From Tenuifilaceae bacterium CYCD (lineage in GTDB: Bacteria > Bacteroidota > Bacteroidia > Bacteroidales > Tenuifilaceae), in assembly GCA_036322835.1 (NCBI GenBank), contig AP027304.1, forward strand, positions 3,782,001 to 3,846,000: DNA of 64,000 bases, written 5' to 3'. The stretch's first letter is position 1. Each line of letters begins with the position of its first letter. This document shows positions 3,010 to 63,361 of the stretch, in pieces. A model generated the notes under the pieces. That model was not told where the DNA came from. It saw only the letters and a program-made list of their open reading frames with translations, and made no database searches. The position numbers and the translations under genes were made by a program.

Positions 3010-4320
3010 TTACTTCACCTTCTCCTTATACAAATACTTAAAGTGATTGAATAACCGCTGGAATACGGTTAATTCATCGGTCGATATTTCTGCGGTACCT
3101 TTAAGTTCGCGCTCCAAACTAAGCGCAGTACCATACGATGTAACCGCACCCTTTGGCAATGCTGCCAACGCCGGAAAACCATCATCGGTATAGCCCGATG
3201 AGATTGACTTAACAACGCCCTCAACCATTCCAAACTCGATATACGGATAACCATCGAGTTTGATATTCACACGCTGGCTAAGTTTAACCCGACCAGCACC
3301 CTCGAACGGTATAACCATTCGCGCCTGTACCTCTCCAATATTATCAGGAGTAATTGCAAACATCGACTCACCAGCCTTCACCTCCTGAACATTACTCCAA
3401 ACCCCCATATAGGTTAACTTCCCCGATGCTGGGGCAACAAGCAGATACGATTTCTCCCAAGCAGCAAGCGTACTCCGTAACTGGTTGTACGCGTTAACTA
3501 AATCGTCGCCAACCTTTCGCTTTTGGCTCTCGTATTCGAGTTTAGTTTCGGCTATTGATTGCTTCAGCTGTTCTACCGATATTTTTGTATTCGAGATTGT
3601 TAGCCGAGCACTCTCCATTGATTGTTGCTTTGCAAGAAGCGTGGATTGCGATTTTTCGAAATCGGCCTGGGCAATAACCCTACCTACGAAAAGCACCGAA
3701 TCGCGGTTGAACTGCTTAACCGATATGTCGTAATCGCGCAACGATAACTTTAACTGATTGCTCAAAAGTTTAAGGTGCTCGGTATACGTTTTTAGTTCGG
3801 CCTCCAGCGCCTCAATCTTCTGATTATGATACTTCTGTTTTTGGAATAGAACATAGGATGTAAGCGAATTTACAAATGCAGAGTAATTCGATTGCACATC
3901 GCCCAATATTAAGTTAGCATTTCCAAATCGTTCCAGATCAACGGCCTCGGATAAATCATTAATACTAAATCTCTCCAAAAGTTTACTCAGGTGAATAATA
4001 TGCTCAAAATTTGCTGGATTCTCCATCACACCAAGCGTATCGCCTTTACGAGTAAGCGCACCATCTTCCACAAAGATAACTTGAGGTTTTCCGGCTACCC
4101 GCGCCACAATAACCGAAGGAGGATTCTCAGCAGTAATAACAACAGGTGCGGTAATAACCTCAGGATACTTAAAGAAAAAACAGCCCACAAATATTGCAGC
4201 AATTACAGCGAATATAACCGTAATTCCCCAGCGAATTATCCAGCGAGGAGGCGTTCCGAGAATTTCGGTGATTTCGTCGGAACGAATATTTATTTGAGGT
4301 TCTTGATTGTTGGGTGACAT
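3010..4320 (-). CDS. HlyD-family membrane-fusion protein of a peptide exporter
   Basis: About 436 residues from the chosen start, the ATG at 4318-4320 (MSPNNQEP). An in-frame ATG 36 bases upstream lies in the degenerate GTGACA repeat and was not preferred. One transmembrane helix (about 30-52) is followed by a biotinyl-lipoyl-like half-domain, a long coiled coil (about 135-285) and the second half-domain (VAPASGKLTYMGVWSNVQEV), the classic layout of type I secretion / bacteriocin-export adaptors. Its partner is the C39-peptidase ABC transporter at 4828-7023; the pair is separated only by the inserted four-helix-bundle gene. Inferred role: carry the GG-leader peptides across the periplasm together with an outer-membrane channel not seen in this window. 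Confidence 0.86.
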   Translation of the reverse strand: MSPNNQEPQINIRSDEITEILGTPPRWIIRWGITVIFAVIAAIFVGCFFFKYPEVITAPVVITAENPPSVIVARVAGKPQVIFVEDGALTRKGDTLGVMENPANFEHIIHLSKLLERFSINDLSEAVDLERFGNANLILGDVQSNYSAFVNSLTSYVLFQKQKYHNQKIEALEAELKTYTEHLKLLSNQLKLSLRDYDISVKQFNRDSVLFVGRVIAQADFEKSQSTLLAKQQSMESARLTISNTKISVEQLKQSIAETKLEYESQKRKVGDDLVNAYNQLRSTLAAWEKSYLLVAPASGKLTYMGVWSNVQEVKAGESMFAITPDNIGEVQARMVIPFEGAGRVKLSQRVNIKLDGYPYIEFGMVEGVVKSISSGYTDDGFPALAALPKGAVTSYGTALSLERELKGTAEISTDELTVFQRLFNHFKYLYKEKVK

Positions 4321-4358
4321 ATTAGTGACGTGTGACAAGTGACATATTGGTGACAAGT
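4321..4358. repeat. Degenerate GTGAC-type short repeat between HlyD and four-helix-bundle genes
   Basis: The sequence repeats the word GTGAC/GTGACA four times at about 7-11 base spacing (attaGTGACgtGTGACAaGTGACAtattgGTGACA). The same family of words flanks the other side of the four-helix-bundle gene (4738-4825) and occurs at about 11143-11170, 58756-58780, 59442-59456 and 62876-62900. Confidence 0.7.
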
Positions 4359-4712
4359 TTATTTACCTAGGCTTTTTTTTAAACCGCTAATCATTCTAAA
4401 CAATTTAGATATAGTTACCAAAATTTTCTCTTTAGTTTCACTATCAATATATTTTAAATTATAGGAAATCTCAATCAATGTTTCTAACTCGGCCAAAGAT
4501 CCTCTGGCTATTCCAAGAAATTGGTTCAATTCACCAGTTGTATTTCGACCAAACCCTTCAGCAATATTGGAAGGAACTGAAACAGCAGATCGTCTAATCT
4601 GGCTTACAATACCAAATATTTCCTCCTTAGGATATGATGCTGTAATAAAATACAATTCGGTTACAAACTCAACTGATAGCTGCCAGACCTCTAAGTCCTT
4701 ATGCGTTTTCAT
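4359..4712 (-). CDS. Four-helix bundle protein (23S rRNA intervening-sequence protein family)
   Basis: 117 residues starting MKTHKDLEVWQLSVEF. Family hallmarks visible: KxLxVWQ near the start, the central QIRRSAVSVPSNIAEGFGR block, and the FLGIARGSLAELETLIEIS helix. The start at 4712 is chosen because an earlier in-frame ATG (4766) lies inside the degenerate repeat and would add a non-family extension. These small four-helix bundles are common in Bacteroidota, occur in 23S rRNA intervening sequences and scattered elsewhere, and have no settled function. It splits an export operon (exporter ATPase upstream, HlyD downstream) and is bounded on both sides by GTGACA repeats, which suggests it arrived as an insertion. 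Confidence 0.85.
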   Translation of the reverse strand: MKTHKDLEVWQLSVEFVTELYFITASYPKEEIFGIVSQIRRSAVSVPSNIAEGFGRNTTGELNQFLGIARGSLAELETLIEISYNLKYIDSETKEKILVTISKLFRMISGLKKSLGK

Positions 4713-4737
4713 TTGAAATGGTTTTAATTTATTAAAT

Positions 4738-4825
4738 AGTGACAAGTGACAGGTGATTAGTGACAAATATAACTTACAACTTTAAATTGTCTTTACTTGT
4801 CACCTGTCACAAGTCACCTGTGACC
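4738..4825. repeat. Degenerate GTGACA/TGTCAC repeat, other flank of the four-helix-bundle gene
   Basis: Two clusters of the same short word: at 4739-4767 (GTGACAAGTGACAGGTGA, then GTGACAAA) and on the opposite strand at 4796-4823 (TTGTCACCTGTCACAAGTCA, then CCTGTGACC). Together with 4321-4358 these bracket the inserted gene. Confidence 0.65.
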
Positions 4826-4827
4826 AT

Positions 4828-7023
4828 CTATAACTCCAGCTGATTCTTCACCAAGGTATAGTAGGCTCCTTTTCTTTCGCTCAGCTCCTTATGCGTTCCA
4901 ACCTCAACAACATTACCTTTCTCCAACACAATAATCTGATCAGCGTTTTTCACTGTACTTAACCTATGCGCCACTACAACCGCAGTTCTTCCCTTAAAGA
5001 ACTCCTGAAGATTCTCCATAATCATTCGTTCATTACTTGCATCCAACGAGTTGGTTGCCTCATCAAAGAATATATACTTTGGATTCTTGTAAACCGAACG
5101 AGCAATTAGTATCCTCTGTTTTTGCCCCTGACTTAAACCGTGCCCCTCGCCCCCTATTTTAGTATTAAAACCTAAAGGTAGCGAAATAATAAAATCGTAG
5201 ATATTGGCAACCTTTGCAGCTTTTATCATTTGCAGTTTATCTATAATCTCCACTCCTGGAGCAATATTGCGGGCAATGGTATCGGAAAAGATAAAGCCAT
5301 CCTGCATAACCACACCGCACTCCTCACGCCAACGCCGCAAGCTGAACGTATCAATATTACTCTGACCAAGTAAAATCTCGCCACCAGTGGGAGGATAAAA
5401 TCCAAGCAACAGTTTTACAAGCGTAGTCTTTCCACTTCCCGATGTCCCCACTATAGCAGTTTGTTTTCCTTCTGGTATTTTAATGCTTACTTCGTTTAGC
5501 ACCAACTCGCTATCGGGACCCTCATATCGAAACGAAAGATTATTAATAACCAAATCTTCTCCATTGGGAATATCTGCGACAAGGCTTTCTGCCGTTTTTT
5601 CCTCATCGTCGCGAAGGTGAATCTCGCTTAAACGCCCCAAACTGATCTTGGCATCCTGCATTGCATTGAAGAAACTAATAAGCTGCTCGATTGGGCTATT
5701 CAGTTGACCAATGATATACTGAACGGCAGTCATCATACCCAGCGTCATATTTCCATCCACAACGCTTTTGGCGGCCAGAATGGTAATAATAATATTCTTG
5801 GTTTCGTTTAGCAACAGCGCCCCGCTCTGCTGATACTGGCTTAAAGCCAACCCCTTAACGCTCACCTTGAAAATTTTAGCCTGAATAGATTCCCACTCCC
5901 ACCGTTTCTGCTGCTCGCAGCCATTCAGCTTAATCTCCTGCATTCCCTGTATAAGCTGAATAAGGTTACTCTGGTTGGCCGACATCTGGGCAAATCGCCG
6001 ATTATCCAATTCAGCACGTTTTCTTAGAAAAAGAACAACCCATATCGCATATAAAGCACTACCAATAAAGAATACCGCAAATATTGTTGAACTGTACATT
6101 AGCAGCACAACACTAAAAATAACCACATTAAAAACCGAAAAGATAACATTTAGCGATGTACCAGTGAGGAAACTCTGGATACGGCTATGATCACCTATGC
6201 GCTGCATCAGATCGCCAGTCATCTTAGCATCGAAAAAGCGCATGGGCAGCCGCATTAACTTCGACAGAAAATCGGATATTAATGCCACATTCACCCTAGT
6301 TCCAAGGTGAAGCAGAATCCAACCGCGAATAAACTCAACCGTTACACGGCTTACAGTAAGCACTAACTGAGCAATAAGCACAAGGTATATAAAACTGATA
6401 TTCCGATTTCCGATACCCTGATCGACAATACTCTGAGTAAGAAATGGCAAAAGTAACTGTAGCAAACTACCCAGCAACAGTCCAAGAAATAACTGAACTA
6501 TTAACCGATGGTACGGCCGAAGGTAATGGAAAAGGAAACCCAAGCTACGCTTATCCAACTTCTCATCCTCCGATGAATAAAAATCGGGTGTGGGCTCTAG
6601 CAGCAATGCAACTCCCTGCTTTTCTTCACCCTCGGAGGTAGCCTGCCAGCAATTCAGAAATTCATTTACAGGGTACTTAACCAATCCCCCTGCAGGATCT
6701 GCTACATGGATAATCTCGTTCCCTTTTCGACCAGTAATCTTATAAACCACCACAAAATGGTTCTGATTCCAATGCACAATGGCCGGTAACGGCGCTTCAG
6801 TTTTTAGCTGCTCAAAGCCAATTTTAACACCCATGGTACGAAATCCAATGCTCTCGGCTGCACGGCTAATACCAAGCATGCTAACACCCTCGCGGGTAAT
6901 AAAACTCCTATCGCGCAACGTATCCAACTTGTAGTGCTTGCCGTAATACTTGGACACCATGCGCAGGCAGGTTGGACCGCAATCCATGGCATCGTACTGG
7001 GTGTAATGGGGGAATGAATGCAT
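4828..7023 (-). CDS. Peptidase-containing ABC transporter (C39 peptidase, bacteriocin/RiPP exporter)
   Basis: 731 residues from the ATG at 7021-7023; a TTG five codons upstream is possible. N-terminal C39 peptidase domain (about 1-140) with catalytic Cys15 in DAMDCGPTC, His89 in NQNHFVVVY and Asp109 in VADPAGG; then a six-helix ABC membrane domain (about 165-450) and a nucleotide-binding domain with Walker A GTSGSGKTT, signature LSQGQKQR and Walker B YIFFDEAT. Such transporters cut leader peptides after a Gly-Gly motif and export the core. All three precursors at 9.99-10.6 kb end their leaders in GG, so they are the likely substrates. HlyD partner downstream. All catalytic and ATPase motifs are intact. 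Confidence 0.93.
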   Translation of the reverse strand: MHSFPHYTQYDAMDCGPTCLRMVSKYYGKHYKLDTLRDRSFITREGVSMLGISRAAESIGFRTMGVKIGFEQLKTEAPLPAIVHWNQNHFVVVYKITGRKGNEIIHVADPAGGLVKYPVNEFLNCWQATSEGEEKQGVALLLEPTPDFYSSEDEKLDKRSLGFLFHYLRPYHRLIVQLFLGLLLGSLLQLLLPFLTQSIVDQGIGNRNISFIYLVLIAQLVLTVSRVTVEFIRGWILLHLGTRVNVALISDFLSKLMRLPMRFFDAKMTGDLMQRIGDHSRIQSFLTGTSLNVIFSVFNVVIFSVVLLMYSSTIFAVFFIGSALYAIWVVLFLRKRAELDNRRFAQMSANQSNLIQLIQGMQEIKLNGCEQQKRWEWESIQAKIFKVSVKGLALSQYQQSGALLLNETKNIIITILAAKSVVDGNMTLGMMTAVQYIIGQLNSPIEQLISFFNAMQDAKISLGRLSEIHLRDDEEKTAESLVADIPNGEDLVINNLSFRYEGPDSELVLNEVSIKIPEGKQTAIVGTSGSGKTTLVKLLLGFYPPTGGEILLGQSNIDTFSLRRWREECGVVMQDGFIFSDTIARNIAPGVEIIDKLQMIKAAKVANIYDFIISLPLGFNTKIGGEGHGLSQGQKQRILIARSVYKNPKYIFFDEATNSLDASNERMIMENLQEFFKGRTAVVVAHRLSTVKNADQIIVLEKGNVVEVGTHKELSERKGAYYTLVKNQLEL

Positions 7024-7084
7024 TCTAGTAATTTTCAAAACAAAACTAACCCTTTTAAACCATCTTAAGCATTATTCGTATTTT

Positions 7085-8548
7085 TTATTTCAGAAATTCT
7101 AGATAATTCTGAACGAAATAAACCCAATCATCTATCCTATCATAAAGTTGAACAGTTTCTTTTAGGGGAATTATCACATCTGGAGCAATACCAACATTAT
7201 CTATAGGATAATCAGGGAGTCTGCGAGAACGGGTCATAGGATAAAGTAACGTGTAATTCTTAGAAGGAAAAGAGACTTGGACAGCATTTGAGTAATCTAG
7301 AACACCAGCAGTATTTTTATTACCAAAAAGCATAACCTTATCGCTATTTTTTGCAGAAAGTAGAAACTGCTCGGCAGACGAAGCATTATTCTCATTTATA
7401 ATAACGCCTACCTTACAAGGCAAAGGATAAACGGTATCTCTAGTAATAGTCTTATCAGAACCCATCAATGGATGAATAACAAACTTCCCTTTACTTGATT
7501 TCATAGTTGTTAATAATTCTTGCGTCCATTTAATTCCATCCTCTCCATTTCTAATTTCTTTTTTTCTTAATGCATCTTCAAATAATTTAATATTTCCAAC
7601 TGAGGCATACCACTCAACCCCTTTTCTCTCATAAGGTTTAGTATACAAAAGATCTAAAATAACTTGATAATAATTATCGAGGCCGCCCCCATTATTTCTT
7701 ATATCTATTATTAAATTTGGGCGGATTGTGATTTCCTTCCAATATTTTTTTACAATAGTTTCAATTCCAGCGTTATTGAAACTAGGTAAACGTATATAAA
7801 AAGTACTATCGCTAAGGCTTAGTGCCACAATGTAAGTATTTATTCCATTAGGATACAACGGAATATATGAACTTAACAAAGCATGGTTGTATGCCATAGA
7901 TTCAGTTTCTCTTACATATTTAGAATAGCCATGAATTTCCAACACTTTTCCATCTAAATGTAAAGATGCAATATAGTCAGATGTTCCATGACCTTTAATA
8001 TTTGAATATTCAATAACTTTAAACCAGTTAACACTATCTTCAATAAATTTCAACATTATCTGCCCCTTTACCCTACCATAAACATTAATTGCAATACCAA
8101 CATAATTCCCATCGGAAATCCTTATAATTGCAATTTTGTCGGAAAAATCCTCCCAAATTCCTTCAAGTCCATTAGTATTCATTGTTGTTTTTTTAAGACT
8201 ATCGTAATTTACAAGATAATTTTCTCCATAGTCTGACAAGTTTTGCATTTTCTCTACAATAGCATTTCCAGATACTTTTTTAACCCTTAGATGCTTATCT
8301 TTAAAAAAATCGGTATAATTATTAAGGTAATATATACAACTATCAGGATATTTAACAATTCTATTTCTAATTGTCTTTTCTAAATCAAGTAATTTAGTGA
8401 TATTCTCATTCGATACTTTTTGAGCATAACCCGGATAGTCATCCTTAATTTTTTTAACAAGAAACTCAAAGTCAGTAAGACATTCGATCTCCTGAGCTTG
8501 CAGAATTAATACTTTAAGTAAAAAGATAAATAAAACTATTCTTTTCAT
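7085..8548 (-). CDS. S41-like (tail-specific) peptidase family protein, secreted
   Basis: 487 residues with signal peptide (MKRIVLFIFLLKVLILQAQ). The C-terminal half has the S41 fold signatures: LIIDIRNNGGG (about 280-290), then NNASSAEQFLL with the candidate nucleophile Ser, then NTAGVLDYSN where C-terminal-processing proteases usually have T-x-G-K and the general-base Lys. Here the Lys position reads Val, so activity should not be assumed unless it is a Ser-His type S41 enzyme. It lies between the radical SAM gene (50 bp) and the exporter (61 bp), apparently co-transcribed. S41 proteins are known neighbours of Bacteroidota GG-leader peptide systems; a role in processing or immunity is inference. 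Confidence 0.75.
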   Translation of the reverse strand: MKRIVLFIFLLKVLILQAQEIECLTDFEFLVKKIKDDYPGYAQKVSNENITKLLDLEKTIRNRIVKYPDSCIYYLNNYTDFFKDKHLRVKKVSGNAIVEKMQNLSDYGENYLVNYDSLKKTTMNTNGLEGIWEDFSDKIAIIRISDGNYVGIAINVYGRVKGQIMLKFIEDSVNWFKVIEYSNIKGHGTSDYIASLHLDGKVLEIHGYSKYVRETESMAYNHALLSSYIPLYPNGINTYIVALSLSDSTFYIRLPSFNNAGIETIVKKYWKEITIRPNLIIDIRNNGGGLDNYYQVILDLLYTKPYERKGVEWYASVGNIKLFEDALRKKEIRNGEDGIKWTQELLTTMKSSKGKFVIHPLMGSDKTITRDTVYPLPCKVGVIINENNASSAEQFLLSAKNSDKVMLFGNKNTAGVLDYSNAVQVSFPSKNYTLLYPMTRSRRLPDYPIDNVGIAPDVIIPLKETVQLYDRIDDWVYFVQNYLEFLK

Positions 8549-8598
8549 ATTTTAAAGAATATATCAAATTTAGTAAAACGAATAGAAAACTAAAAGGA

Positions 8599-9897
8599 CT
8601 ATATTTCTTTCATAATATTTGAATAGAACTCAATTAATCTTTCATTTAAAGCTATTTTTATGCCTTCTTCAAGACAATATTTTTTTGTAAGCCCCTCTAA
8701 TCCGTAATCAACCATTTTTTGAGAACACGCACCAAGGCACAATGGCAAAAATTTACAATCAACACACATAATGGCTTCAAATGGAGATTGCCCATAACGT
8801 TTACTTATTTTGTTAAAGTTCCAATCAATTTGACCATCTTCTAGCAAAACTCCATCAGGTTTTTCTTTATAAAAATCCCTTGCAGTACATTTAAAAACAG
8901 CACCATTAGTATTAATAACTGCTTGATTAAATTTATCAGCATAACAACGATAACCCTTAAAATATTGATTAGAAGTCTTTCTCTTAAAACCAGACGTTTC
9001 GAACATATTTCTTATTTCCGTTAAGTCTTCAGCCTTTTCGCATTTTTCCATTTGCCAAATCTGTTGTAAAAATATTTCTATTTTAGAACGATTTTCCAAT
9101 GGGAATGAATCAACAACCTTATTAAGGTTGCACAAATATGAGTTTTGATAATTTATTCGTAAACAAATATTGACATTATTTAGTTTTTCACAAAGTCTAT
9201 TAATATTTAATGCAATAACATCATAAGAACCTTTCCCATCTCTAGTTTTTCTTACTCTATCGTGATTTTCTTTAGAACCATCAAATGTAATTTGAAATGT
9301 CAATAATTTTATTGCATCAAATTTCTCAATCATAGAATCATTAATTAGAAATCCATTTGTTGTAATTGTATTTGAAAACGAAACATTATTTTCATAACAT
9401 ATTTTTAACACCTCTAATGATATAGGATAGACTATCTCATCAAAATAAAGTAATGGTTCTCCTCCAAACCAATCTAATTGAAACATTTTTATTCTTTTAT
9501 TTTCAACAATATATTTTACATGTTTAATAATATTATCTATTGTTTTAACCTCCATTTTATCATTTAAATGTGTCTCATAACAGTACCAACAATTAAAATT
9601 ACAATCTAATGTTGGATTAATGGTAAGCCTATAAATATTATCATTGTATATATTAAGATGGTATTTAGCCTTAATAATGAGTAATTCATCTACATCATCC
9701 TCAATAATTAATCCGAGTTTATTACAAAGGGAAAAAAAAATTGGTTCATTTAATTCTAAAACATTAGGATCATTATTACAATCCATCAACTTATTGTAAT
9801 TAACTTGATTTAAACAGAACATTGCCTCAGATATCATATTTATCCCTAAATAATTACTGTCATATTCTATAAAATAATTATAACTACTGAACTTCAT
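8599..9897 (-). CDS. Radical SAM/SPASM peptide maturase of the GG-leader peptide cluster
   Basis: 432 residues. Radical SAM cluster motif C99-x3-C103-x2-C106 in LDCNFNCWYCYETH, glycine-rich SAM-binding FGGEPLLY, and a C-terminal SPASM domain with Cys in GYRCYADK, FKCTARDF, CVDCKFLPLCLGACS and KKYCLEEG, able to bind one or two extra Fe-S clusters. Enzymes of this kind make thioether or C-C crosslinks or other changes on ribosomal peptides. It starts about 90 bp after the stop of precursor 1 and is distinctly AT-richer than the housekeeping genes here, which suits an acquired cluster. The substrates are almost certainly the Cys-rich peptides just upstream; the actual modification cannot be read from sequence. 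Confidence 0.92.
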   Translation of the reverse strand: MKFSSYNYFIEYDSNYLGINMISEAMFCLNQVNYNKLMDCNNDPNVLELNEPIFFSLCNKLGLIIEDDVDELLIIKAKYHLNIYNDNIYRLTINPTLDCNFNCWYCYETHLNDKMEVKTIDNIIKHVKYIVENKRIKMFQLDWFGGEPLLYFDEIVYPISLEVLKICYENNVSFSNTITTNGFLINDSMIEKFDAIKLLTFQITFDGSKENHDRVRKTRDGKGSYDVIALNINRLCEKLNNVNICLRINYQNSYLCNLNKVVDSFPLENRSKIEIFLQQIWQMEKCEKAEDLTEIRNMFETSGFKRKTSNQYFKGYRCYADKFNQAVINTNGAVFKCTARDFYKEKPDGVLLEDGQIDWNFNKISKRYGQSPFEAIMCVDCKFLPLCLGACSQKMVDYGLEGLTKKYCLEEGIKIALNERLIEFYSNIMKEI

Positions 9898-9987
9898 AAA
9901 AAATAAATTAAAAGATTAATAATCTTAATAATAAAACAACCTTACTAATGTAAGGTTGTCTATATGTAATAATTTTATAATAAAAAA

Positions 9988-10176
9988 TTACATGCAAACA
10001 CAAGCACATTTGTCTGCATTATTATTATTAGAAATTGCAGATGAATTATGATATATACAACCACAATATTCTATGGAATTATTGTTATTAACATCTTGAG
10101 AAGCAAACTCTAATCTAACTACTCCTCCTATAAGCAAAGACATCTCATCTTTGCTCAATTCAATTTTTTTATTCAT
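9988..10176 (-). CDS. GG-leader RiPP precursor peptide 1 (CxC-x16-CxCxC core)
   Basis: 62 residues. Leader MNKKIELSKDEMSLLIGG ends in Gly17-Gly18 with the hydrophobic/acidic pattern (L-x-x-x-E-M-x-x-L-x-G-G) recognised by C39 exporters. The core has two Asn-rich half repeats, each running into a Cys pair: DVNNNNSIEYCGC (Cys38, Cys40) and ISNNNNADKCACVC (Cys57, 59, 61). Spacing CxC-16-CxCxC is identical in the two sister peptides. It lies directly upstream of the radical SAM gene. Resembles the natural-product precursors of the GG-Bacteroidales type; the core pattern is not one I can match to a characterised product. Confidence 0.85.
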   Translation of the reverse strand: MNKKIELSKDEMSLLIGGVVRLEFASQDVNNNNSIEYCGCIYHNSSAISNNNNADKCACVCM

Positions 10177-10192
10177 ATTTTAATTTTAATAA

Positions 10193-10378
10193 TTAAATAC
10201 ATTTACACCGACAGCCTGCTATATCGTTGTTATTATTTATTACAGAATGATTATTATAAGTGCATGTACAGCCATCTACCTGATTATGATTATTAATATC
10301 ATCAACAGCCAAACTTAGAAGACAATGTCCTCCAACTAAATAATTCATTTCCTCTTCTTTCAATTCTATAATTTTCAT
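10193..10378 (-). CDS. GG-leader RiPP precursor peptide 2 (CxC-x16-CxCxC core)
   Basis: 61 residues. Leader MKIIELKEEEMNYLVGG with Gly16-Gly17; core begins HCLLSLAVDD, carries an extra Cys19, then INNHNQVDGCTC (Cys37, 39) and INNNNDIAGCRCKC (Cys56, 58, 60). Shares the leader end and first part of the core almost base for base with peptide 3 (about 10285-10355 against 10520-10590), so these two are a recent duplication, while the second half diverged. 16 bp separate it from peptide 1, consistent with one transcript. Confidence 0.85.
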   Translation of the reverse strand: MKIIELKEEEMNYLVGGHCLLSLAVDDINNHNQVDGCTCTYNNHSVINNNNDIAGCRCKCI

Positions 10379-10435
10379 TTTAAAAAGTTTTTAAAGGTTA
10401 ATATTATTTTATGATGATGTATGTAGTACATTATT

Positions 10436-10615
10436 TTACATACACAAACACCTGCACCCCTTAATGGAGTTATCATTCGAAATCACGCTTGTATTTTCAT
10501 ACGAACAAACGCACGTTGCAGTCGAATTGGTATTATTAATATCATCAACAGCCAAACTCAGAAGACAATGTCCTCCAACTAAATAATTCATTTCTTCATT
10601 TGTAAGTGATTCCAT
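10436..10615 (-). CDS. GG-leader RiPP precursor peptide 3, 59 aa (CxC-x16-CxCxC core)
   Basis: A short gene of 59 codons plus stop (ATG at 10613-10615, TAA at 10436-10438). Leader MESLTNEEMNYLVGG, Gly14-Gly15, is shorter than in the sisters but keeps E-M-N-Y-L-V-G-G. The core keeps HCLLSLAVDDINN, then STATCVCSY (Cys35, 37) and IKGCRCLCM (Cys54, 56, 58), giving the same CxC-x16-CxCxC spacing; Asn tetrads are eroded to NNTN and SNDN. It is the first peptide after the conserved leader element and would be translated first. Confidence 0.83.
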   Translation of the reverse strand: MESLTNEEMNYLVGGHCLLSLAVDDINNTNSTATCVCSYENTSVISNDNSIKGCRCLCM

Positions 10616-10627
10616 AACAAATAAATT

Positions 10628-10775
10628 TTTATCTACTCTTAGGGATTCTCCCAGGCTTTTCGGTTACCGCCCACCGCTCCATCCAGCGCAGTTTATTTTA
10701 ATGGATTGGTTAGTACAAAGTAAAGTGTTTACCCTGCAACCACCTTTCAGGGTTGTAAGTATTTTTATGTTTAAT
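10628..10775 (-). ncRNA. Conserved structured leader between HTH gene and GG precursors (copy 1)
   Basis: About 150 nt matching, in order, the segment before the GG precursor at 59.97 kb. Parts along the minus strand: hairpin at 10731-10753 (stem ACCCTG/CAGGGT, 11-nt loop), a conserved AT-rich run ending AAACTGCGC, then a G-rich segment with GGTGGGCGGTAACCG and GGGAGAATCCCTAAGAGTAG close to the first start codon. The outer three stem pairs present in the other copies are lost here. No known riboswitch family is recognised. Position suggests control of precursor transcription or translation. Confidence 0.6.
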
Positions 10776-10782
10776 AACACAC

Positions 10783-11061
10783 TTATAGAGGAGGAAAGTT
10801 TGAGGTATTAGTATTTTGGTTATTGGATTCGTCCTCAATAAAACAAAGTGCTAACCTGCCAGGGCGGGAGTACTTCCAAGTTTTACATTTGTAATCGTAA
10901 ACAACTGGAATCTTGATTTCACTCAGCTGCTTAAAGTACGACATCACGGTGCGTTCACTAACTCCAAGTTTATCGGCAATTTCGGGTGCAGTTCCTGCAT
11001 TGCCCTGCTGTAAAAGAAAATCAAGATAATCGATAAGTCTTTTTGATTCAACAATATTCAT
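10783..11061 (-). CDS. Small helix-turn-helix protein upstream of GG precursors (copy 1)
   Basis: 92 residues from the ATG at 11059-11061 (MNIVESKRLIDYLDFLLQQG); an earlier in-frame start at 11148 lies in the conserved promoter/repeat region, and the MNIVES start is shared with the copy at 62977. The TAPEIADKLGVSERTVMSYFKQL stretch (split: TAPEIADKLGVSERT is the helix-turn-helix) is followed by a short wing and a polar tail. DeoR/HTH_11-like. Near-identical proteins are at 59514 and 62977, each directly before a leader element and a GG precursor, so it is probably a cassette-specific regulator. Confidence 0.82.
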   Translation of the reverse strand: MNIVESKRLIDYLDFLLQQGNAGTAPEIADKLGVSERTVMSYFKQLSEIKIPVVYDYKCKTWKYSRPGRLALCFIEDESNNQNTNTSNFPPL

Positions 11062-11170
11062 ACTAAACACAAATTTTTTGATAATAATTTTTGCGTTTAA
11101 TAGGAATGAAGCGATAATTGTTACCTGTTTTTGGAAGAAAAGTGACAAGTGACTGGTGACGTGTGACTAA
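11062..11170 (-). promoter_or_regulatory. Conserved upstream region of the HTH gene (copy 1)
   Basis: On the minus strand the block reads GGTAACAATTATCGCTTCAT, then a CTATTAAA-like stretch, then AAATTTGTGTTTAGT directly before the ATG. The same block occurs before the HTH copies at 59.51 and 62.98 kb and, without an intact HTH gene, at about 58.78-58.86 kb. It probably carries the promoter and operator; the exact -7 and -33 elements are not certain. GTGAC words at 11143-11165 belong to the short repeat family. Confidence 0.5.
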
Positions 11171-12205: not shown

Positions 12206-13282
12206 TCACACACCCCAAATTTGAGCGTTTAGTTCGGCAACCCGCTCGGGGTTTACAACAAAACCTGTTTCCCGGGAATACGTTCCACACTCCTCCACAG
12301 GAACGTAACCCTCCTCGCCTTGCCATTTGGCTATGTAAGGGTTGTAATTACACTTGGCTGGTCGGGAGTAGATATTCTCTGGGTCTTTTATGTATACACG
12401 GCAATCGGTGCACATATGGCGAAACTCACAGTCCTTGCAGACATCAACTTGGTCTTTTGTTATACTCCATAACTTTTTAAAATCGGGATGCTCCAAGGAT
12501 TGCTTCAAGGTAGTATCCTTTATATTTCCGAACGATTGGGTACAGGATGGACAGTTTTTGATGTTGCCTTGTACCTCAATTGATATTTTCCGATTTAGAC
12601 AACTATTACAATTCAACGATTCAAAATATAATTCCCTATTACAAACAAAGAAGCCTGCTTCTACAACTCCACACTGTTCTATACCATAATAGTTTTCCGT
12701 TGTAATAAAAACTACACATCCGTTCAAATGAGCAAAAGAACACTTGTCTGCACCATACAATGTAATTGTTGTTAACATTTTATATTTGGAGATTAACTCC
12801 TCAATATCGACAACTCGGGAAGGCAGGATTAACTCCACACTTAATATATTACTACCAGAAAAGAAGCCTAATGTATTTAATACTTTACTTCTACGAACAC
12901 AAGAAGCAAAACGTAATTGTAGAGCCCTACACCCCAAGTCGCTAAGTTGACTTATAATTTTATAAAACTCAAAACTAGAATGGTTGTCAATATCAACAAT
13001 ACAACTCTGAATTTGAAATGGGCCAATCCAAGTTGCTTTAATGGCTGGAAACATTTTAGCTTCACTCAATAGACATGGAAATATCACCTCTTTCTCCAAT
13101 AGTTCTTCAACTATATTCTCCTGTAAAGTAAGTAATAACTTTTCTTGAATAACATCCTTACTGAGCACATTAAACGTTTTGGAGTCTATCGAAAAAGCAT
13201 CCTTACGGGAAATATCATAAATGAGATTTTGGACATAGCCCTTCACCAGAAAACAATCTGCAAATTTTTTATAGTGCTTCAT
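12206..13282 (-). CDS. gwsS: SPASM-domain peptide maturase, grasp-with-spasm system
   Basis: 358 residues. No CxxxCxxC radical SAM motif is present in the N-terminal part, but a Cys-rich SPASM-type C-terminal region is: NCNSCLNRK, KNCPSCTQS, DVCKDCEFRHMCTDC and AKCNYNPY. This matches the known grasp-with-spasm partner proteins, which look like radical SAM/SPASM proteins that have lost the SAM cluster. Expected to work with the ATP-grasp enzyme encoded next to it. Overlaps the 71-aa gene by 14 bp, so translation is coupled. Fragments of its 3' end recur at 11235-11297 and 62687-62804. Confidence 0.85.
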   Translation of the reverse strand: MKHYKKFADCFLVKGYVQNLIYDISRKDAFSIDSKTFNVLSKDVIQEKLLLTLQENIVEELLEKEVIFPCLLSEAKMFPAIKATWIGPFQIQSCIVDIDNHSSFEFYKIISQLSDLGCRALQLRFASCVRRSKVLNTLGFFSGSNILSVELILPSRVVDIEELISKYKMLTTITLYGADKCSFAHLNGCVVFITTENYYGIEQCGVVEAGFFVCNRELYFESLNCNSCLNRKISIEVQGNIKNCPSCTQSFGNIKDTTLKQSLEHPDFKKLWSITKDQVDVCKDCEFRHMCTDCRVYIKDPENIYSRPAKCNYNPYIAKWQGEEGYVPVEECGTYSRETGFVVNPERVAELNAQIWGV

Positions 13283-13484
13283 TTAACTCCAATTCAATAC
13301 GTTCTACACTAAATATCCGAGACGTTGGCTTCGAGGGCATATCAACAATAACCTTATTTGACTGTAACAAATCTACGGGAATAGACTTGATCTGTCGCAA
13401 AGTACCACGCTGAATAAATTTTGCATTCTTAAAACAGATTGGCAATTGTGAGTTGCAATTAGGGTTAATTTTAAATTGTTCCAT
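13269..13484 (-). CDS. 71-aa protein encoded between gwsG and gwsS
   Basis: 71 residues, MEQFKINPNCNSQLPICFKN at the start. It overlaps gwsG by 14 bp upstream and gwsS by 14 bp downstream, the mark of a translationally coupled real gene. Two Cys (10 and 17), no GG leader, no signal peptide, no membrane segment. It does not resemble a GG precursor; it could be a modified peptide substrate or a small accessory (leader-binding) protein. Function unknown. Confidence 0.65.
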   Translation of the reverse strand: MEQFKINPNCNSQLPICFKNAKFIQRGTLRQIKSIPVDLLQSNKVIVDMPSKPTSRIFSVERIELELNEAL

Positions 13485-14451
13485 ACATCAAGTAGTTGGC
13501 TATTTCTTGTTCAATTGGATAGTTACAATTCTTACTTACCATTTCTATATTACCAACTGGATTAACCTCAAGGAAAACGTACTCCCTTTCGGGCGTTACA
13601 ATCATATCAATTGAACCAGTGTTTAACCCTAAGCGTTCTATGAATTTAAACAACTTATTCTCAATACTCTTTTGTAACTTATAAGGAACCATTCTGTTGG
13701 ATTTTTCATTATCATAGTTTCTAAAATCCGTGGTAGTCTTTGTATTCGACTGAGAGAATATGGCCATTGAGTAAAACTTTTTACCAAGGAAGAACACCCT
13801 TAATTCAATCCACTTCTTAACATTTTGCTGGATTAGAGAAGGAAAAAACTCCGTTTTTTCATCAACTTCACTTAAAACTACAACCTCAGTGAACATTTTT
13901 AGGATTGAGCCATCCGTATTCTGAAAAGTTTCGGATTCACTAATAGGCTTTGAAATTTGTTCTGCAGCAGTTAACCTATTCCTTACAATACACCCTTTGC
14001 TAGTTATGGTTGAGTCGGGAATCATCAAACCACACTGTTTGGCTATGCTTAAGTTAATAAGTTTATTGACCAATGATTTCTGAAAACTTCCTAATACAAG
14101 GCTCTTACTCTCTAAAACATAGAATATATAAAATTGTAAGATACTCCACTCATTCCCTAAAAAACGGCCTACTTGATTCAACATACTAGGGTTGGACGAA
14201 AGTTCAAGTAATGCGGGTTGAAAAAGACTAGGATTCAGATTACCACGTCTATACCAAACCGTATCGAAATCGTTTATATTGAAAACCTTTCCGTTAAATT
14301 CAAATAGCAACCGTTCGCAGTTGAGCGATAGCTCTACAATTTTTAGAGAATCCTCCTTGTTTACCCGCAAAAAACTTATGCCGTGAAACAATAGCCACTG
14401 CAACACCTCATCGGTGGTGCGTTCAAACTCCTCACTAATTATTAGTATCAT
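13471..14451 (-). CDS. gwsG: ATP-grasp peptide maturase, grasp-with-spasm system
   Basis: 326 residues beginning MILIISEEFERTTDEVLQWL. ATP-grasp features: the N-terminal pre-grasp domain with FDTVWYRRGNLNP, a central lid region with KKWIELRVFFLGKKFYSMAI, and the C-terminal metal-binding segment TGSIDMIVTPEREYVFLEVNPVG (read as LGLNTGSID and FLEVNPVGN), whose E and N ligate Mg. Related enzymes (microviridin/graspetide and grasp-with-spasm) form ester or amide links in ribosomal peptides. It starts 9 bp after the ~410-aa secreted protein gene. A 20-codon fragment of another gwsG is at 61478. Confidence 0.85.
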   Translation of the reverse strand: MILIISEEFERTTDEVLQWLLFHGISFLRVNKEDSLKIVELSLNCERLLFEFNGKVFNINDFDTVWYRRGNLNPSLFQPALLELSSNPSMLNQVGRFLGNEWSILQFYIFYVLESKSLVLGSFQKSLVNKLINLSIAKQCGLMIPDSTITSKGCIVRNRLTAAEQISKPISESETFQNTDGSILKMFTEVVVLSEVDEKTEFFPSLIQQNVKKWIELRVFFLGKKFYSMAIFSQSNTKTTTDFRNYDNEKSNRMVPYKLQKSIENKLFKFIERLGLNTGSIDMIVTPEREYVFLEVNPVGNIEMVSKNCNYPIEQEIANYLMYGTI

Positions 14452-14460
14452 AGAATTAGG

Positions 14461-15690
14461 TTATTCGGGAGGATTTAGTGAAACTTTGCGACTTGTTTGG
14501 CTTATCTTAAACTCTTTTAGTAGCCTCCCCTTGCTCTCAATATAAATGGGCTTAGAATCACCATTCGGATATATATTTATCCCTTTATCAAAAAAGGTCT
14601 TCCTTATCTTCTGAGTTATGTCTATTGATTCAAAGAAAAGTTTATTCTGCTCCTCCTTACTCAATCTAGTATAATTGCTTTTGGTATAGCCAATCTCCTT
14701 GAAACGGCGTAAATGCTCATCAAAAGGATATGTCGTTTGATTATAGTACAACGCTATTTCATAATTTTTTCGTACTGCATCTCTCAACGATTCCAAACCC
14801 AAATAGTTCCTATACTTGTCCACCGTTTCAATACTGTATTTGGGGTAATTATAAATAAGTGTCTTAGTATTGAAATCGATATACACCTCTAAAGAGCCTA
14901 ATTGCCTAGCGCTATCCAACTCGCTATGCTCCATGCACATTGCAACAAAATTTGGTGAAATATTACCACAGAACACGGCATCAACCAAAAGCGGCTCTAG
15001 ATCGTACTTATTAAACGCCATCCTGCAATATGGCTCAACAGTAATATCAATTCCACTTTTAGAGCAGTACTTTAGCTGATTCCTTAGCGCAAAATGATGG
15101 CGAATTACATCGGCAGGAAGCAGTTGTCCCTCAAACATGGGAACTTGAGGAATGCCTCTCTCCGATATAAGCCGATGAAGTACTTTCGCATGCTCGTAAA
15201 CAAGACTATCGTATTGCTTTTTGTCCAAATATACATACCGTTGTTCTTCATTACTCATAGTATCAAGTATGGACTTAAACTCAACATCCATTCTTGAGAA
15301 ATAGATCGATCGCAAAGAATCGTACCGACTTCGAATATCCGACCAAATAGAATCGGGCAATTGTTTATACGTACTAACATTAAAGTCCTCCACGCTAACA
15401 CCTTGAATAACCTGAGCTTCTATCCACAATTTTGCCTGATTGAATTGTCCTGTAAGTATTGCACACAACGCTGCATTGTGTAAATCGGCAATGCGGTGCT
15501 TCTCATACCGATCAAAGGCGGTATAGTAAAGCCTGTAGGCCTGCTCAAAGTTCAGATCTACCACACAGAGCTCCGCCTCGTTTATGGTTTTATAGTAAGA
15601 TGCATACTTCCGCTCATTTCCGCAAAACGCTTTACTGAATGAAAACAAGAATAATAATAGCGATAATCTAAAACATATAACCCTTAGCAT
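14461..15690 (-). CDS. ~410-aa secreted protein of the RiPP cassette, copy A1
   Basis: 409 residues with signal peptide (about 1-24, ending SKAFCG). An N-terminal region looks TPR-like (EQAYRLYYTAFDRYEKHRI, LHNAALCAILTGQFNQAKLW), followed by a middle domain with GIPQVPMFEGQLLPADVIRH and HHFALRNQL and a C-terminal RNYLGLESLRDAVRKNYEIA. There is a distant feel of the DUF6624 family, which I cannot confirm. Three relatives lie at 60198, 61537 and 63647, each after a GG precursor or a grasp remnant. It heads the gwsG-gwsS operon here without its own HTH/leader/precursor. From about residue 45 to 395 it is nearly identical, DNA included, to copy A2. Confidence 0.8.
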   Translation of the reverse strand: MLRVICFRLSLLLFLFSFSKAFCGNERKYASYYKTINEAELCVVDLNFEQAYRLYYTAFDRYEKHRIADLHNAALCAILTGQFNQAKLWIEAQVIQGVSVEDFNVSTYKQLPDSIWSDIRSRYDSLRSIYFSRMDVEFKSILDTMSNEEQRYVYLDKKQYDSLVYEHAKVLHRLISERGIPQVPMFEGQLLPADVIRHHFALRNQLKYCSKSGIDITVEPYCRMAFNKYDLEPLLVDAVFCGNISPNFVAMCMEHSELDSARQLGSLEVYIDFNTKTLIYNYPKYSIETVDKYRNYLGLESLRDAVRKNYEIALYYNQTTYPFDEHLRRFKEIGYTKSNYTRLSKEEQNKLFFESIDITQKIRKTFFDKGINIYPNGDSKPIYIESKGRLLKEFKISQTSRKVSLNPPE

Positions 15691-59399: not shown

Positions 59400-59513
59400 T
59401 TTCATATTGGAATTATAGCTGCTTTATTATGCTTTTGCCACCGGTCACTTGTCAACAATAGGTAACAATTATCGCCCCATCCTTATTAAATATAAATTAA
59501 TTCCCTAAAATTT
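59400..59513 (+). promoter_or_regulatory. Conserved upstream region of the HTH gene (copy 2)
   Basis: CCGGTCACTTGTCAACAATA at about 59441, GGTAACAATTATCGCCCCAT at 59461, then TAAATTAATTCCCTAAAATT before the start. Same order of blocks as at 62.88-62.97 kb and 11.06-11.17 kb (minus). Confidence 0.5.
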
Positions 59514-59921
59514 GTGTTTAGTGTTAATTTTGTTGAATCCGAACGACTTATCGAGTATCTCGATTTTCTTTTACAGCAGGGCAATGCAGGAACTGCACCC
59601 GAAATTGCCGATAAACATGGAGTTAGTGAACGTACAGTAATGTCTTACTTTAAGCAGCTGAGTGAGATTAAAGTTCCCGTTATTTACGATTTTGCACACC
59701 GAACTTGGAGGTACTCCCGCCCAGGCAGGTTAGCCCTTTGCTTTATTGAGGACGAATCCAATAACCAAAATACTAATACCTCAAACTTCCACCCCTCTAT
59801 AAGTGTGTTATTAAATATAAAAATATTTACAACCCTGAAAGGCGGTTGCAGGGTTGTCGGTTTACTTTGTATTAACCAATCCATTAAAATAAACTGCGCA
59901 GGATGGGATGGTGGGCGGTAA
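59514..59921 (+). CDS. Small helix-turn-helix protein (copy 2), altered at both ends
   Basis: Up to 135 residues. The helix-turn-helix GTAPEIADKHGVSERTVMSY is present, with one Leu to His change in the first helix relative to the other copies. The ATG used in copies 1 and 3 is GTT here, so the start must be the GTG at 59514, nine bases upstream, or another codon. At the 3' end the normal stop is replaced by a sense codon and the frame runs on for about 35 residues through the conserved leader hairpin. It may therefore be decaying, though the DNA-binding part is intact. Confidence 0.65.
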   Translation: MFSVNFVESERLIEYLDFLLQQGNAGTAPEIADKHGVSERTVMSYFKQLSEIKVPVIYDFAHRTWRYSRPGRLALCFIEDESNNQNTNTSNFHPSISVLLNIKIFTTLKGGCRVVGLLCINQSIKINCAGWDGGR

Positions 59922-59955
59922 CCGAAAAGCCCGGGGGAATCCCTAAGAGTAGGAA
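59797..59955 (+). ncRNA. Conserved structured leader before the GG precursor (copy 2)
   Basis: Hairpin at 59829-59857 with a 9-bp stem (ACAACCCTG/CAGGGTTGT) and 11-nt loop AAAGGCGGTTG, then the conserved run CGGTTTACTTTGTATTAACC, AATCCATTAAAATAAACTGC, GCAGGATGG, and the G-rich segment GGTGGGCGGTAACCGAAAAG with GGGGGAATCCCTAAGAGTAG. The precursor start codon is 19 bases further on. The G-rich segment can form GGGC/GCCC and GGG/CCC pairings. Confidence 0.65.
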
Positions 59956-59973
59956 AATTAAATTATTTTAGCG

Positions 59974-60195
59974 ATGAAAAGTGTTTTAAGAAAATTCGAA
60001 AAAAATAGTATTGATATGTCTAAGATTTATGGAGGAAACGATTATCCTACAGGTATAGCAAGAGCTTATGATTATAATGGGATAATATACACAGGGAAGG
60101 AATTCGCAAGAATTAGTTCCGATGGAAGTTGTGTTGAAACATACATTGTTGATGCCCAAGGTTATGAGCATTCTGGAACATTGGTTTGTGATTAA
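59974..60195 (+). CDS. GG-leader precursor peptide, 73 aa
   Basis: Leader MKSVLRKFEKNSIDMSKIYG-G with Gly20-Gly21, then a polar, Tyr- and Gly-rich core with only two Cys (53 and 72, the latter two residues from the end). No CxC motif, so the product differs from the peptides at 10 kb. Placed after the HTH gene and leader and 2 bp before the ~410-aa secreted protein gene, as expected from the cassette order. Confidence 0.7.
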   Translation: MKSVLRKFEKNSIDMSKIYGGNDYPTGIARAYDYNGIIYTGKEFARISSDGSCVETYIVDAQGYEHSGTLVCD

Positions 60196-60197
60196 TA

Positions 60198-61433
60198 ATG
60201 ATTTGTAGGTATTCTTTTATACTCTTGCTACTATTATCTAGTTCGAAACTTTTGGTCAGTTCTAGTAGCAAGAGTTATGCTCCTTACTATGAAGCTGTAA
60301 ACCAGGCAGAACTGCGTATTGTTGAGTTGGATTTTGAGGGAGCGTTTGGTATTTATTCTCAAGTCTTTCCCTTGTATGAAAAACATAGAATATCAGATTT
60401 GCATAATGCTTCGTTATGTGCCATACTAATTGGGAAGTATGATTATGCAAAGCAGTGGATGAAAGAACAGGTATCCTTTGGAATTCCAATTGATGAATTT
60501 AAAGGTTCCATATATCGTAAATTACCTGATAGTTGTTGGCGGGAACTTGAACAGGAGTATGATTCTTTACGTTCAATCTATTATTCGAATACCAACGTTG
60601 AATTTAAACGTATTTTGGATGGACTTAGAGGGCCGGAACAGCAATACATGAAGTTAAGTAAGAATTTGTATGATAGCCTAATATATGAGCATGCAAAAGT
60701 ACTTCATCGGACTATATTGGAGAAAGGTATTCCTAAGGTTCCCATGTTTGAGGGTCAACTACTGCCTGTTGACATAATGCGACATCACTTTGCGCTTCGG
60801 AATCAACTCAAACACTTTGAACAGTTTAGCATTGACACTTCCAGTAATCCATATAGAAATATGAATTTTTCTGACTATGACTTGGAATCTATATTGATTA
60901 AGGCGGTTTTTAATGGCGATATTTCACCTCAATTTATTGCTATGTGTATGGAACATAGTGAACTTGACTATACTAAGGCAATAGATGTATTTTACATTAT
61001 AATTGATTTAGAGAAAAAGACTATTAAGAAAGTAATAAATAAGAATATAGATACGATACAAGTAAATAGTTATCGCAAATACCTCGGATTAGAATCGCTT
61101 GAAGATGCTTTACGGAAAAATTTTGAAATAGCACTTTACTATTCTCAGGGATTATTCCCTTTTGATGAGCATATTAAGCGGTATAGAGAAGTAGGTTATA
61201 CCGAATCTGAAATGACTCGACTTGGCTTATATTCTGATGAATTTGATAGAAGAGCAATTTCCGGGAATCAAATTAGTAGAGAAATCAAAACAGAATATTT
61301 AAACAAATGGAAAGAACTAAATGATACTCGCGATAATAGTCCACTATGTATTCAGAACCCCTTAATATTATTAACAGAATTCAAAATAAGTCAAACCTCG
61401 GTAAAGAAAACATTGATTCCTCCTTTGAAATAA
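60198..61433 (+). CDS. ~410-aa secreted protein of the RiPP cassette, copy A3
   Basis: 411 residues, signal peptide MICRYSFILLLLLSSSKLLV. Same architecture as copy A1 at 14461 (SDLHNASLCAILIGKYDYAK, KGIPKVPMFEGQLLPVDIMR, HHFALRNQLKHFEQ, KYLGLESLEDALRKNFEIAL, ending EFKISQTSVKKTL) but clearly diverged in sequence, so it is an older paralogue. Directly follows a GG precursor and is followed by a gwsG remnant. Confidence 0.8.
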   Translation: MICRYSFILLLLLSSSKLLVSSSSKSYAPYYEAVNQAELRIVELDFEGAFGIYSQVFPLYEKHRISDLHNASLCAILIGKYDYAKQWMKEQVSFGIPIDEFKGSIYRKLPDSCWRELEQEYDSLRSIYYSNTNVEFKRILDGLRGPEQQYMKLSKNLYDSLIYEHAKVLHRTILEKGIPKVPMFEGQLLPVDIMRHHFALRNQLKHFEQFSIDTSSNPYRNMNFSDYDLESILIKAVFNGDISPQFIAMCMEHSELDYTKAIDVFYIIIDLEKKTIKKVINKNIDTIQVNSYRKYLGLESLEDALRKNFEIALYYSQGLFPFDEHIKRYREVGYTESEMTRLGLYSDEFDRRAISGNQISREIKTEYLNKWKELNDTRDNSPLCIQNPLILLTEFKISQTSVKKTLIPPLK

Positions 61434-61477: not shown

Positions 61478-61540
61478 ATGATTTTAATAATTAGTGAAGA
61501 GATTGAACGCACAACTGAGTTACTATTTGCTAACGTATGA
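61478..61540 (+). pseudogene. 5' remnant of a gwsG (ATP-grasp maturase) gene
   Basis: Reads MILIISEEIERTTELLFANV then TGA. The first 13 residues match gwsG at 13471 (MILIISEEFERTTDEV) and the DNA is also similar; then homology ends and the frame stops. The TGA overlaps the ATG of the next gene (ATGA at 61537-61540). It sits exactly where gwsG follows the ~410-aa gene in the first region. Confidence 0.8.
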
Positions 61541-62875: not shown

Positions 62876-62976
62876 CACGTCACCAGTCACTTGTCACTTT
62901 TCTTCCAAGAATAGGTAACAATTATCGCTTCATTCCTATTAAACACAAAAATCATTATCTAAAATTTGTGTTTAGT
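62876..62976 (+). promoter_or_regulatory. Conserved upstream region of the HTH gene (copy 3)
   Basis: CACGTCACCAGTCACTTGTC, then AATAGGTAACAATTATCGCT, then CTATTAAACACAAAAATCAT and AAAATTTGTGTTTAGT before the ATG. From about 62800 the sequence also matches the minus strand of 11240-11140 almost base for base. Confidence 0.5.
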
Positions 62977-63267
62977 ATGAATATTGTTGAATCAAAAAGA
63001 CTTATCGATTATCTTGATTTTCTTTTACAGCAGGGCAATGCAGGAACTGCACCCGAAATTGCCGATAAACTTGGAGTTAGTGAACGCACCGTGATGTCGT
63101 ACTTTAAGCAGCTGAGTGAAATTAAGGTTCCAGTTATTTACAATTTTGCACGCCGAACTTGGAAGTATTCTCGCCCTGGCAGGTTAACTCTTTGTTTTAT
63201 TGATGACGAATCCAATACCCAAAATATCGACACCCCAAACTTACCCCCCTCCATAAATATGCTATAA
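62977..63267 (+). CDS. Small helix-turn-helix protein (copy 3)
   Basis: 96 residues from ATG 62977 (MNIVESKRLIDYLDFLLQQG); an upstream in-frame start at 62797 would read through the promoter region and was rejected. HTH TAPEIADKLGVSERTVMSYF identical to copy 1; the short C-terminal tail DDESNTQNIDTPNLPPS differs. Followed by the leader hairpin and a GG precursor. Confidence 0.82.
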   Translation: MNIVESKRLIDYLDFLLQQGNAGTAPEIADKLGVSERTVMSYFKQLSEIKVPVIYNFARRTWKYSRPGRLTLCFIDDESNTQNIDTPNLPPSINML

Positions 63268-63282
63268 AACATAAAATTATTT

Positions 63283-63361
63283 ACAGGTCGGAAGTGTGGT
63301 TGCCGACCTGTCGGTTTACTTTGTATTAACCAATCCATTAAAATAAACTGCGCAGGATGGA
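63283..63361 (+). ncRNA. Conserved structured leader before the GG precursor (copy 3, short form)
   Basis: Hairpin 63283-63311: stem ACAGGTCGG/CCGACCTGT, 11-nt loop AAGTGTGGTTG. Compared with copy 2 the stem changed at four positions on both arms while pairing was kept. The run CGGTTTACTTTGTATTAACC and AAACTGCGCAGGATGG follow, but the G-rich GGCGGTAACC segment near the start codon is absent. Confidence 0.65.

Follow-up and report, generated by a model that had tools for sequence, protein, structure and literature searches.

Gene content and organization of the locus

We describe here a peptide cluster on the minus strand of a 64,000 nt stretch of the genome of Tenuifilaceae bacterium CYCD (AP027304.1, 3,782,001-3,846,000), which is referred to below as the window and provides the numbering for all coordinates given without a locus or contig handle. 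Read along the minus strand, the cluster runs from a small helix-turn-helix (HTH) regulator of the HTH_11 family through three precursor genes, a radical S-adenosylmethionine (SAM)/SPASM maturase, an S41-family peptidase, and an ABC exporter with a C39 peptidase domain to a 23S_rRNA_IVP protein and an HlyD-type adaptor (Table 1). A preliminary description of the range 7085-10615 had listed three tandem precursors with leaders ending in GG and C-x-C-x16-C-x-C-x-C cores, together with a radical SAM/SPASM enzyme carrying an intact CxxxCxxC motif, an S41-like protein, a C39 exporter, and HlyD on the same strand. All of these were recovered, but the exporter and HlyD genes (3010-7038), although they share the strand of the precursors, lie outside that range. 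The Cys, His, and Asp of the C39 peptidase are presumably intact, as judged by eye against the motif of such peptidases, and the start of the S41 protein has, also by eye, what we take to be the character of a signal peptide.

The intergenic gaps are only 90 bases between precursor 3 and the maturase, 50 between the maturase and the S41 gene, and 46 between the S41 gene and the exporter, so that the genes from the precursors to the exporter are likely to form a single operon. GG leaders, cores, a modifying enzyme, and a C39 ABC exporter are held in one cluster, which is the gene content of a C39-exported ribosomally synthesized and post-translationally modified peptide (RiPP), and the locus almost certainly encodes an exported, radical-SAM-modified peptide.

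Table 1. Features of the peptide cluster in the window
Feature	Position	Strand	Remarks
Small HTH_11 regulator	10783-11058	-	Upstream of precursors; Pfam HTH_11 32 bits (cut-off 25)
Precursor 1	10436-10615	-	59 aa; leader to G15; two N-x-N-x4-C-x-C units in core
Precursor 2	10193-10378	-	61 aa; core architecture as in precursor 1
Precursor 3	9988-10176	-	62 aa; core architecture as in precursor 1
Radical SAM/SPASM maturase	8599-9897	-	432 aa; Pfam Radical_SAM 64.9 bits
S41-family peptidase	7085-8548	-	Pfam S41 57.9 bits (cut-off 24)
C39 peptidase-containing ABC exporter	4828-7038	-	Pfam Peptidase_C39 108.9, ABC_membrane 103, ABC_tran 100.9 bits
23S_rRNA_IVP protein	4359-4766	-	124.7 bits; between exporter and HlyD genes
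HlyD-type periplasmic adaptor	3010-4356	-	HlyD_3 25.4 bits (cut-off 22.2); TIGR01843 67 bits (below cut-off 208.65)

The precursor family and its conserved core

In the three window precursors the exact cysteine pattern of the core arose in only 12, 15, and 4 per 100,000 shuffles of their own core residues, respectively. The homologue search proposed in the preliminary description found GG-leader precursors near related maturases in nine other genomes, giving a family of 27 precursors from 10 genomes with the window genome included; this number is a lower bound because, in the maturase scan of genome contigs, the loci covered were the best 80 of 308 relatives. All 27 members carry the motif N-x-N-x4-C-x-C-x-[YFW]-x-[ND], a linker, and N-x-N-x4-C-x-C-x-C, which appeared in none of 20,000 composition-preserving shuffles, and its four Asn and five Cys are kept in every member. 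The two Asn-rich half repeats claimed earlier for each core thus correspond to the unit N-x-N-x4-C-x-C, which occurs twice in every member (54 occurrences in 27 cores), and in every member the conserved Asn, which would be the bond acceptors, precede the Cys.

The x16 spacing between C-x-C and C-x-C-x-C had been regarded as invariant, and this holds for the window precursors but for only 19 of the 27 members; the spacing is x17 in seven and x18 in one, by which CxC-x16-CxCxC was ruled out as the family signature. GG and the first Asn of the motif are 2 to 27 residues apart, and the C-terminal tail has a length of 1 to 18. Linker, tail, and GG distance all vary, and the Asn-Cys loop of four is the fixed element along which its surroundings slide. 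Runs of four Asn in window precursors 2 and 3 allow a loop of five to be counted once per half, with another Asn pair giving four. The leaders resemble those of the TIGR04149 precursors of Bacteroidetes, although the window precursors scored 17, 18.6, and 18.6 bits against that GG-leader model, under its cut-off of 25 (the best in the same genome is 21.4), and the core of the family is distinct from theirs.

The family seems to be rare. When 148 genomes (the window genome and relatives) were searched with the maturase, 10 had a match at E <= 1e-40, and among the loci read from these the same core was present in those of the window genome, of G107 (four precursors), and of G015 (two). With a precursor profile, 393 genomes of the order yielded strong matches in three, namely the window genome, G107, and G385, the last with two precursors, and weak ones in four. 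In draws of 395 phylum and 395 class genomes, strong matches were confined to the window genome. Around the weak matches (E 0.002-0.01), which came from four genomes of the order draw and five of the phylum draw, no family member was found among the open reading frames (ORFs) listed, namely those with at least three Cys or at least 250 aa, and three further matches in the window genome (E 0.14-0.18) were left out of the family. Among the best 80 loci of the 308 relatives, the core was present in seven (L044, L045, L046, L047, L048, L049, and L078), of which L044 is from Dysgonomonas sp. ZJ279, the only named record of the family without a MAG label, L047 is from a metagenome-assembled genome (MAG) labelled Ignavibacteriales, and L048 has the precursors of G107. 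Plasmids were also considered: 113 records had a maturase match, and the two best, from Rhizosphaericola mali (36.9% identical) and Flammeovirga kamogawensis (37.6%), were rejected as family members since their cores differ.

As judged from sequence, the [ND]-x-N-x4-C-x-C unit is modular, with a copy number of two or three and varied linkers. Two or more units were found in 29 of the 6407 distinct small ORFs of the collected loci, that is, in the 27 family members, in L092 (Bacteroides fluxus), and in L150 (an Alistipes MAG, the same genome as that of L051), the latter two being from genomes that also have related maturases. The ORF of L092 has two units beside a distant maturase and lacks the aromatic residue after the first unit and the last Cys; that of L150 has three units, of which two begin with Asp, and stands directly before an HlyD-like ORF. 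Shuffling gave at least two units in 14 per 100,000 for L150 (three units never) and in 6 per 100,000 for L092. Among 258 GG-leader Cys ORFs from non-family loci, only two contain the N-x-N-x4-C-x-C unit, once in L090 and twice in L092.

The radical SAM/SPASM maturase

The maturase carries its CxxxCxxC motif as C99-x3-C103-x2-C106, and C318, C337, C378, C381, C387, C391, and C408 in the presumed SPASM region, which we assign by the spacing rule for that domain, are like the motif conserved in five aligned sequences. It was matched by 47 NCBIfam models, of which the best 25 provide the scores given here, and all of these lie under their cut-offs. The highest score was for TIGR04463 (165.5 bits, cut-off 525), followed by Clo7bot (162.5), CefB (153.2), the geopeptide maturase (108.8), and PapB (101), with the SCIFF maturase model at 75.6 (cut-off 425). 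The models named for cyclophanes scored lower, with 64.9 for YhhB (cut-off 445), 55.6 for GrrM/OscB (310), 44.4 for XyeB (450), 42.6 for FxsB (370), and 41.3 for AmcB (425), so that the window maturase is matched better by the Cys-peptide maturase models than by the cyclophane-named ones.

The AlphaFold2 model of the maturase had a predicted local distance difference test score (pLDDT) of 91.5, and its top Foldseek match was the ranthipeptide maturase CteB. With VIA-align 2, CteB aligned at Z 24.6 (3.8 A) over 381 residues, which is nearly the full length and takes in the N-terminal domain, in comparison to the same Z of 24.6 over 331 residues for ChlB and Z 22.9 over 392 residues for TigE. 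In a quick tree of 86 maturases, core type required four changes in comparison to a mean of 9.7 after shuffling, with none of 500 shuffles as low, and nine of the ten core-bearing rows fell into one clade of 12 rows with a Shimodaira-Hasegawa-like approximate likelihood ratio test (SH-aLRT) value of 94. The maturase of G385 (L124, 2950-4255) is split into two overlapping ORFs, which would be due to a misassembly or to a disrupted gene. A related maturase in a Saprospiraceae MAG (L111, 2963-5834) stands beside ten tandem GG-leader precursors, eight of which have NNCxGGNCxxxCG cores.

The S41 peptidase and the exporter

A full-length S41 peptidase lies near the maturase or precursors in six of the ten family loci (the window, G107, L044, L047, L049, and G385), and L078 has a fragment. 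None was seen in L045, L046, and G015, whose contigs stop 153, 999, and 0 bases beyond the maturase, respectively; the opposite side, which extends for 5.9 kb in L045 and for 11 kb in G015, also has none. In the 80 scanned loci the peptidase was found in four of the seven with the family core in comparison to six of the 73 others (Fisher p 0.004, for rows that are not independent); a second version of the count, in which L056 (E 3e-13) was added, gave seven of the 73 (p 0.006), with L078 (fragment) and L107 (E 0.0008) left out. The S41 enzymes of the window and of G107, the latter encoded beside the precursors, are 46% identical and have in common NASSAEQFL, which is likely to be the region of the catalytic serine. 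In G003, a genome of the family to which the window genome belongs, the exporter is 80% identical, the maturase is 37% identical, and the core is different. Because G003 keeps the exporter and differs in maturase and core, the latter two look exchangeable around a stable exporter.

Proposed cross-links and alternative explanations

The interpretation that we favor, and to which we give an even chance, is an exported RiPP with non-alpha thioethers that join Cys to upstream Asn and are nested in two hairpins. Leader recognition, cleavage at GG by C39 peptidases, and export are known biology of these protein families. The N-terminal domain of the maturase would bind the GG leader and the enzyme would modify the core; the C39 exporter would then cleave after GG and export the product together with HlyD, and the S41 peptidase may trim the product or protect the producer. 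The core would consist of two hairpin units N1-x-N2-x4-Ca-x-Cb, in which the loop of four places N2 opposite Ca and N1 opposite Cb, and the bond would probably be an S-C-beta thioether from Cys to upstream Asn, with two nested per unit. This predicts four cross-links in total, about -8 Da, and leaves one C-terminal Cys; precursors 1 and 2 have an additional Cys where the core begins. In precursor 1, if the units are two-strand hairpins, the pairs would be N28/C37, N30/C35, N47/C56, and N49/C54, and by the same sequence arithmetic the third pairs would be residue 26/Tyr39 and residue 45/Cys58. The genes, the family, its invariant residues, and the modularity of the unit are shown by the sequences; we infer the bond type, the residue pairing, the hairpin, the leader binding, and the S41 role.

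The nearest precedent is NxxcB, which joins Cys23 to C-beta of the upstream Asn20 according to the parts of PMC13361665 and PMC8326336 consulted. With nine residues (four Asn and five Cys) kept in the whole family and NxxcB as a precedent, a Cys-Asn link, which the preliminary description had raised as a possibility, gains support, its chemistry being our interpretation. The streptococcal RaS-RiPP system NxxcA/NxxcB, a ranthipeptide, is like the window family in having Asn upstream of Cys and a radical SAM/SPASM enzyme, as far as the consulted sections describe it. However, NxxcA carries one bridge that spans two residues, in comparison to two N-x-N-x4-C-x-C units here with four Asn and five Cys, and the conserved spacing is N-x4-C and not that of the N-x-x-C core motif. 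The window family further differs in its GG leader, C39 exporter, and occurrence in Bacteroidota, and the likeness is one of description and not of NxxcB sequence. The ranthipeptide systems thermocellin/CteB and freyrasin/PapB are similar in that the window maturase has CteB as its closest fold and scores 101 bits, under the cut-off, with the PapB model; the acceptors described for them are Thr for CteB and Asp/Glu for PapB, and the CX3D repeat is not the conserved motif of the window family.

Several observations weigh against these thioethers. AlphaFold2 gave the precursor, with 27 sequences, a pLDDT of 44.4 and no hairpin, and because no confident fold was obtained, the hairpin is drawn solely from register arithmetic. 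The maturase is far under every cut-off among the best 25 of 47 models (101 in comparison to 340 for PapB), and the dynobactin enzyme DynA, at 90.9 bits, comes close behind PapB, which is described as requiring a carboxylate and not an amide in the portion of PMC9413430 consulted. The placement of the window maturase beside the core-bearing clade is unsupported (SH-aLRT 4). For the clade rows L015, L050, and L055 (genomes G105, G808, and G810) no precursor match was found at E <= 0.5; the precursor adjoining L055 is of a different type and none was seen beside L050. The L150 precursor is a weak profile match (E 0.024) on another contig than the single maturase match of its genome (L051, from a search at E <= 1e-30), so that the pairing of the two, which lie on separate contigs, is presumptive. 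Lastly, the invariant aromatic-x-Asn/Asp would suit a cyclophane.

This last point brings in a triceptide-like explanation, which we consider unlikely, in which a three-residue cyclophane would be formed between the invariant aromatic residue and C-beta of the Asn or Asp at i+2 and the Cys pairs would form disulfides after export. The triceptide-type site [YFW]-x-[ND] is present in all 27 precursors (21 with Asn and six with Asp), and in the part of PMC11002830 consulted the known triceptide links include those of Asn with Trp or Phe and those of Asp with Trp or Tyr. However, a single such site per peptide leaves the four Asn and five Cys invariants unexplained, the second unit has Cys where the aromatic residue would be, and L092 has two units without the aromatic residue at that position. 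The family also differs from triceptides by its Cys-rich repeats and by a maturase nearer to thioether models, the cyclophane-named models scoring lower than these among the best 25 of 47, with all under cut-off.

S-C-alpha thioethers, possibly to residues besides the conserved Asn, would make the product a sactipeptide, and this we regard as improbable. Here the Cys-rich core and the SPASM-type enzyme fit, and ruminococcin C offers a parallel, being described in the consulted part of PMC8172795 as a double hairpin of nested thioethers with Asn among its acceptors; for the window family a double hairpin is proposed only. Compared by description, ruminococcin C differs in having the donor Cys before the acceptors and S-C-alpha bonds. 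Sactipeptides are in general described with the donor Cys N-terminal and the acceptors C-terminal in the portion of PMC8326336 consulted, whereas here the conserved Asn precede the Cys, and among solved structures CteB outranks the sactisynthase SkfB (in fold only).

That the product is simply a Cys-rich metal-binding or disulfide peptide, with a minor role for the radical enzyme such as Asn epimerisation, seems to us very improbable. CxC and CxCxC are metal-site-like, and precursor 2 has a metallothionein match of 14 bits, under the cut-off of 27; yet the fixed Asn-to-Cys register would go unexplained, the invariant Cys number five, an odd count for disulfides, and none of the ten window proteins scanned was over cut-off to a metal-transport family.

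Returning to the nested Asn-Cys thioethers, a broader proposal, which we put forward with considerable doubt, is a new ranthipeptide-like class built from a portable [ND]-x-N-x4-C-x-C, with two reversed (acceptor-before-donor) nested thioethers per hairpin, two or three units, and perhaps also a cyclophane made by the same enzyme at the invariant aromatic-x-Asn/Asp after the first unit. Because ranthipeptides, sactipeptides, and triceptides are each defined by the bond and the present data are sequences, the family is assigned to none of these classes.

Neighbouring peptide clusters

Just upstream of the precursors lies a grasp-with-spasm RiPP system (12206-14451, minus strand), matched by TIGR04193 at 249.2 and TIGR04192 at 277.2 bits, both over cut-off, which may share the C39 exporter; a 71-aa ORF in this region (13269-13484) had no family match. 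Just past the window end (L140, 64846-67095), after the ORF 63396-63587, comes another grasp-with-spasm pair, with identities of 42% and 49% to the first. The HTH gene and its upstream region (10620-11150, minus strand) are repeated on the plus strand at 59453-59967, at 62889-63361, and past the window end at G000:C1:3849180-3849374, with copies that are 86%, 88%, and, for a partial one, 84% identical, and there are two further short matches. The copies in the window precede different small leader-peptide-like ORFs (59974-60195 and 63396-63587), and the repetition suggests that several peptide clusters could be under shared control. Three paralogues of about 410 aa also lie near peptide clusters, at 14461-15690 (minus), 60198-61433 (plus), and 61537-62781 (plus); the first and third are 96% identical and the second is about 50% identical to both, and the one tested was without a Pfam match.

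Implications

In line with the earlier statement that no characterised product has this spacing, the literature search found no paper describing the core with its double N-x-N-x4-C-x-C among open-licence papers, in which sequences inside figures are unsearchable. Of these, a Bacteroidales mining paper (PMC10352776) reports, in the part consulted, nine clusters with the precursor sequences in a figure, and an overlap with the window family is possible. The family is a variant among radical-SAM-modified, C39-exported peptides and not a new kind of system. The analysis narrows a loose Cys-rich pattern to a defined unit that carries a specific, testable bond prediction, and the recurring S41 peptidase points to an additional step, perhaps after export, of which the parts of the literature consulted give no description; in PMC10885120, on leader proteases, nothing on S41 peptidases came up in the passages searched. 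If two nested Asn-Cys thioethers per unit are true, one enzyme would install at least four bridges that are both reversed and nested, and no such topology was encountered in the parts of the literature consulted. The unit tolerates varied linkers and copy numbers and could serve in building stapled hairpins, and if the Asn-Cys stitching is real, the family may be an undescribed group of cross-linked bacterial peptides.

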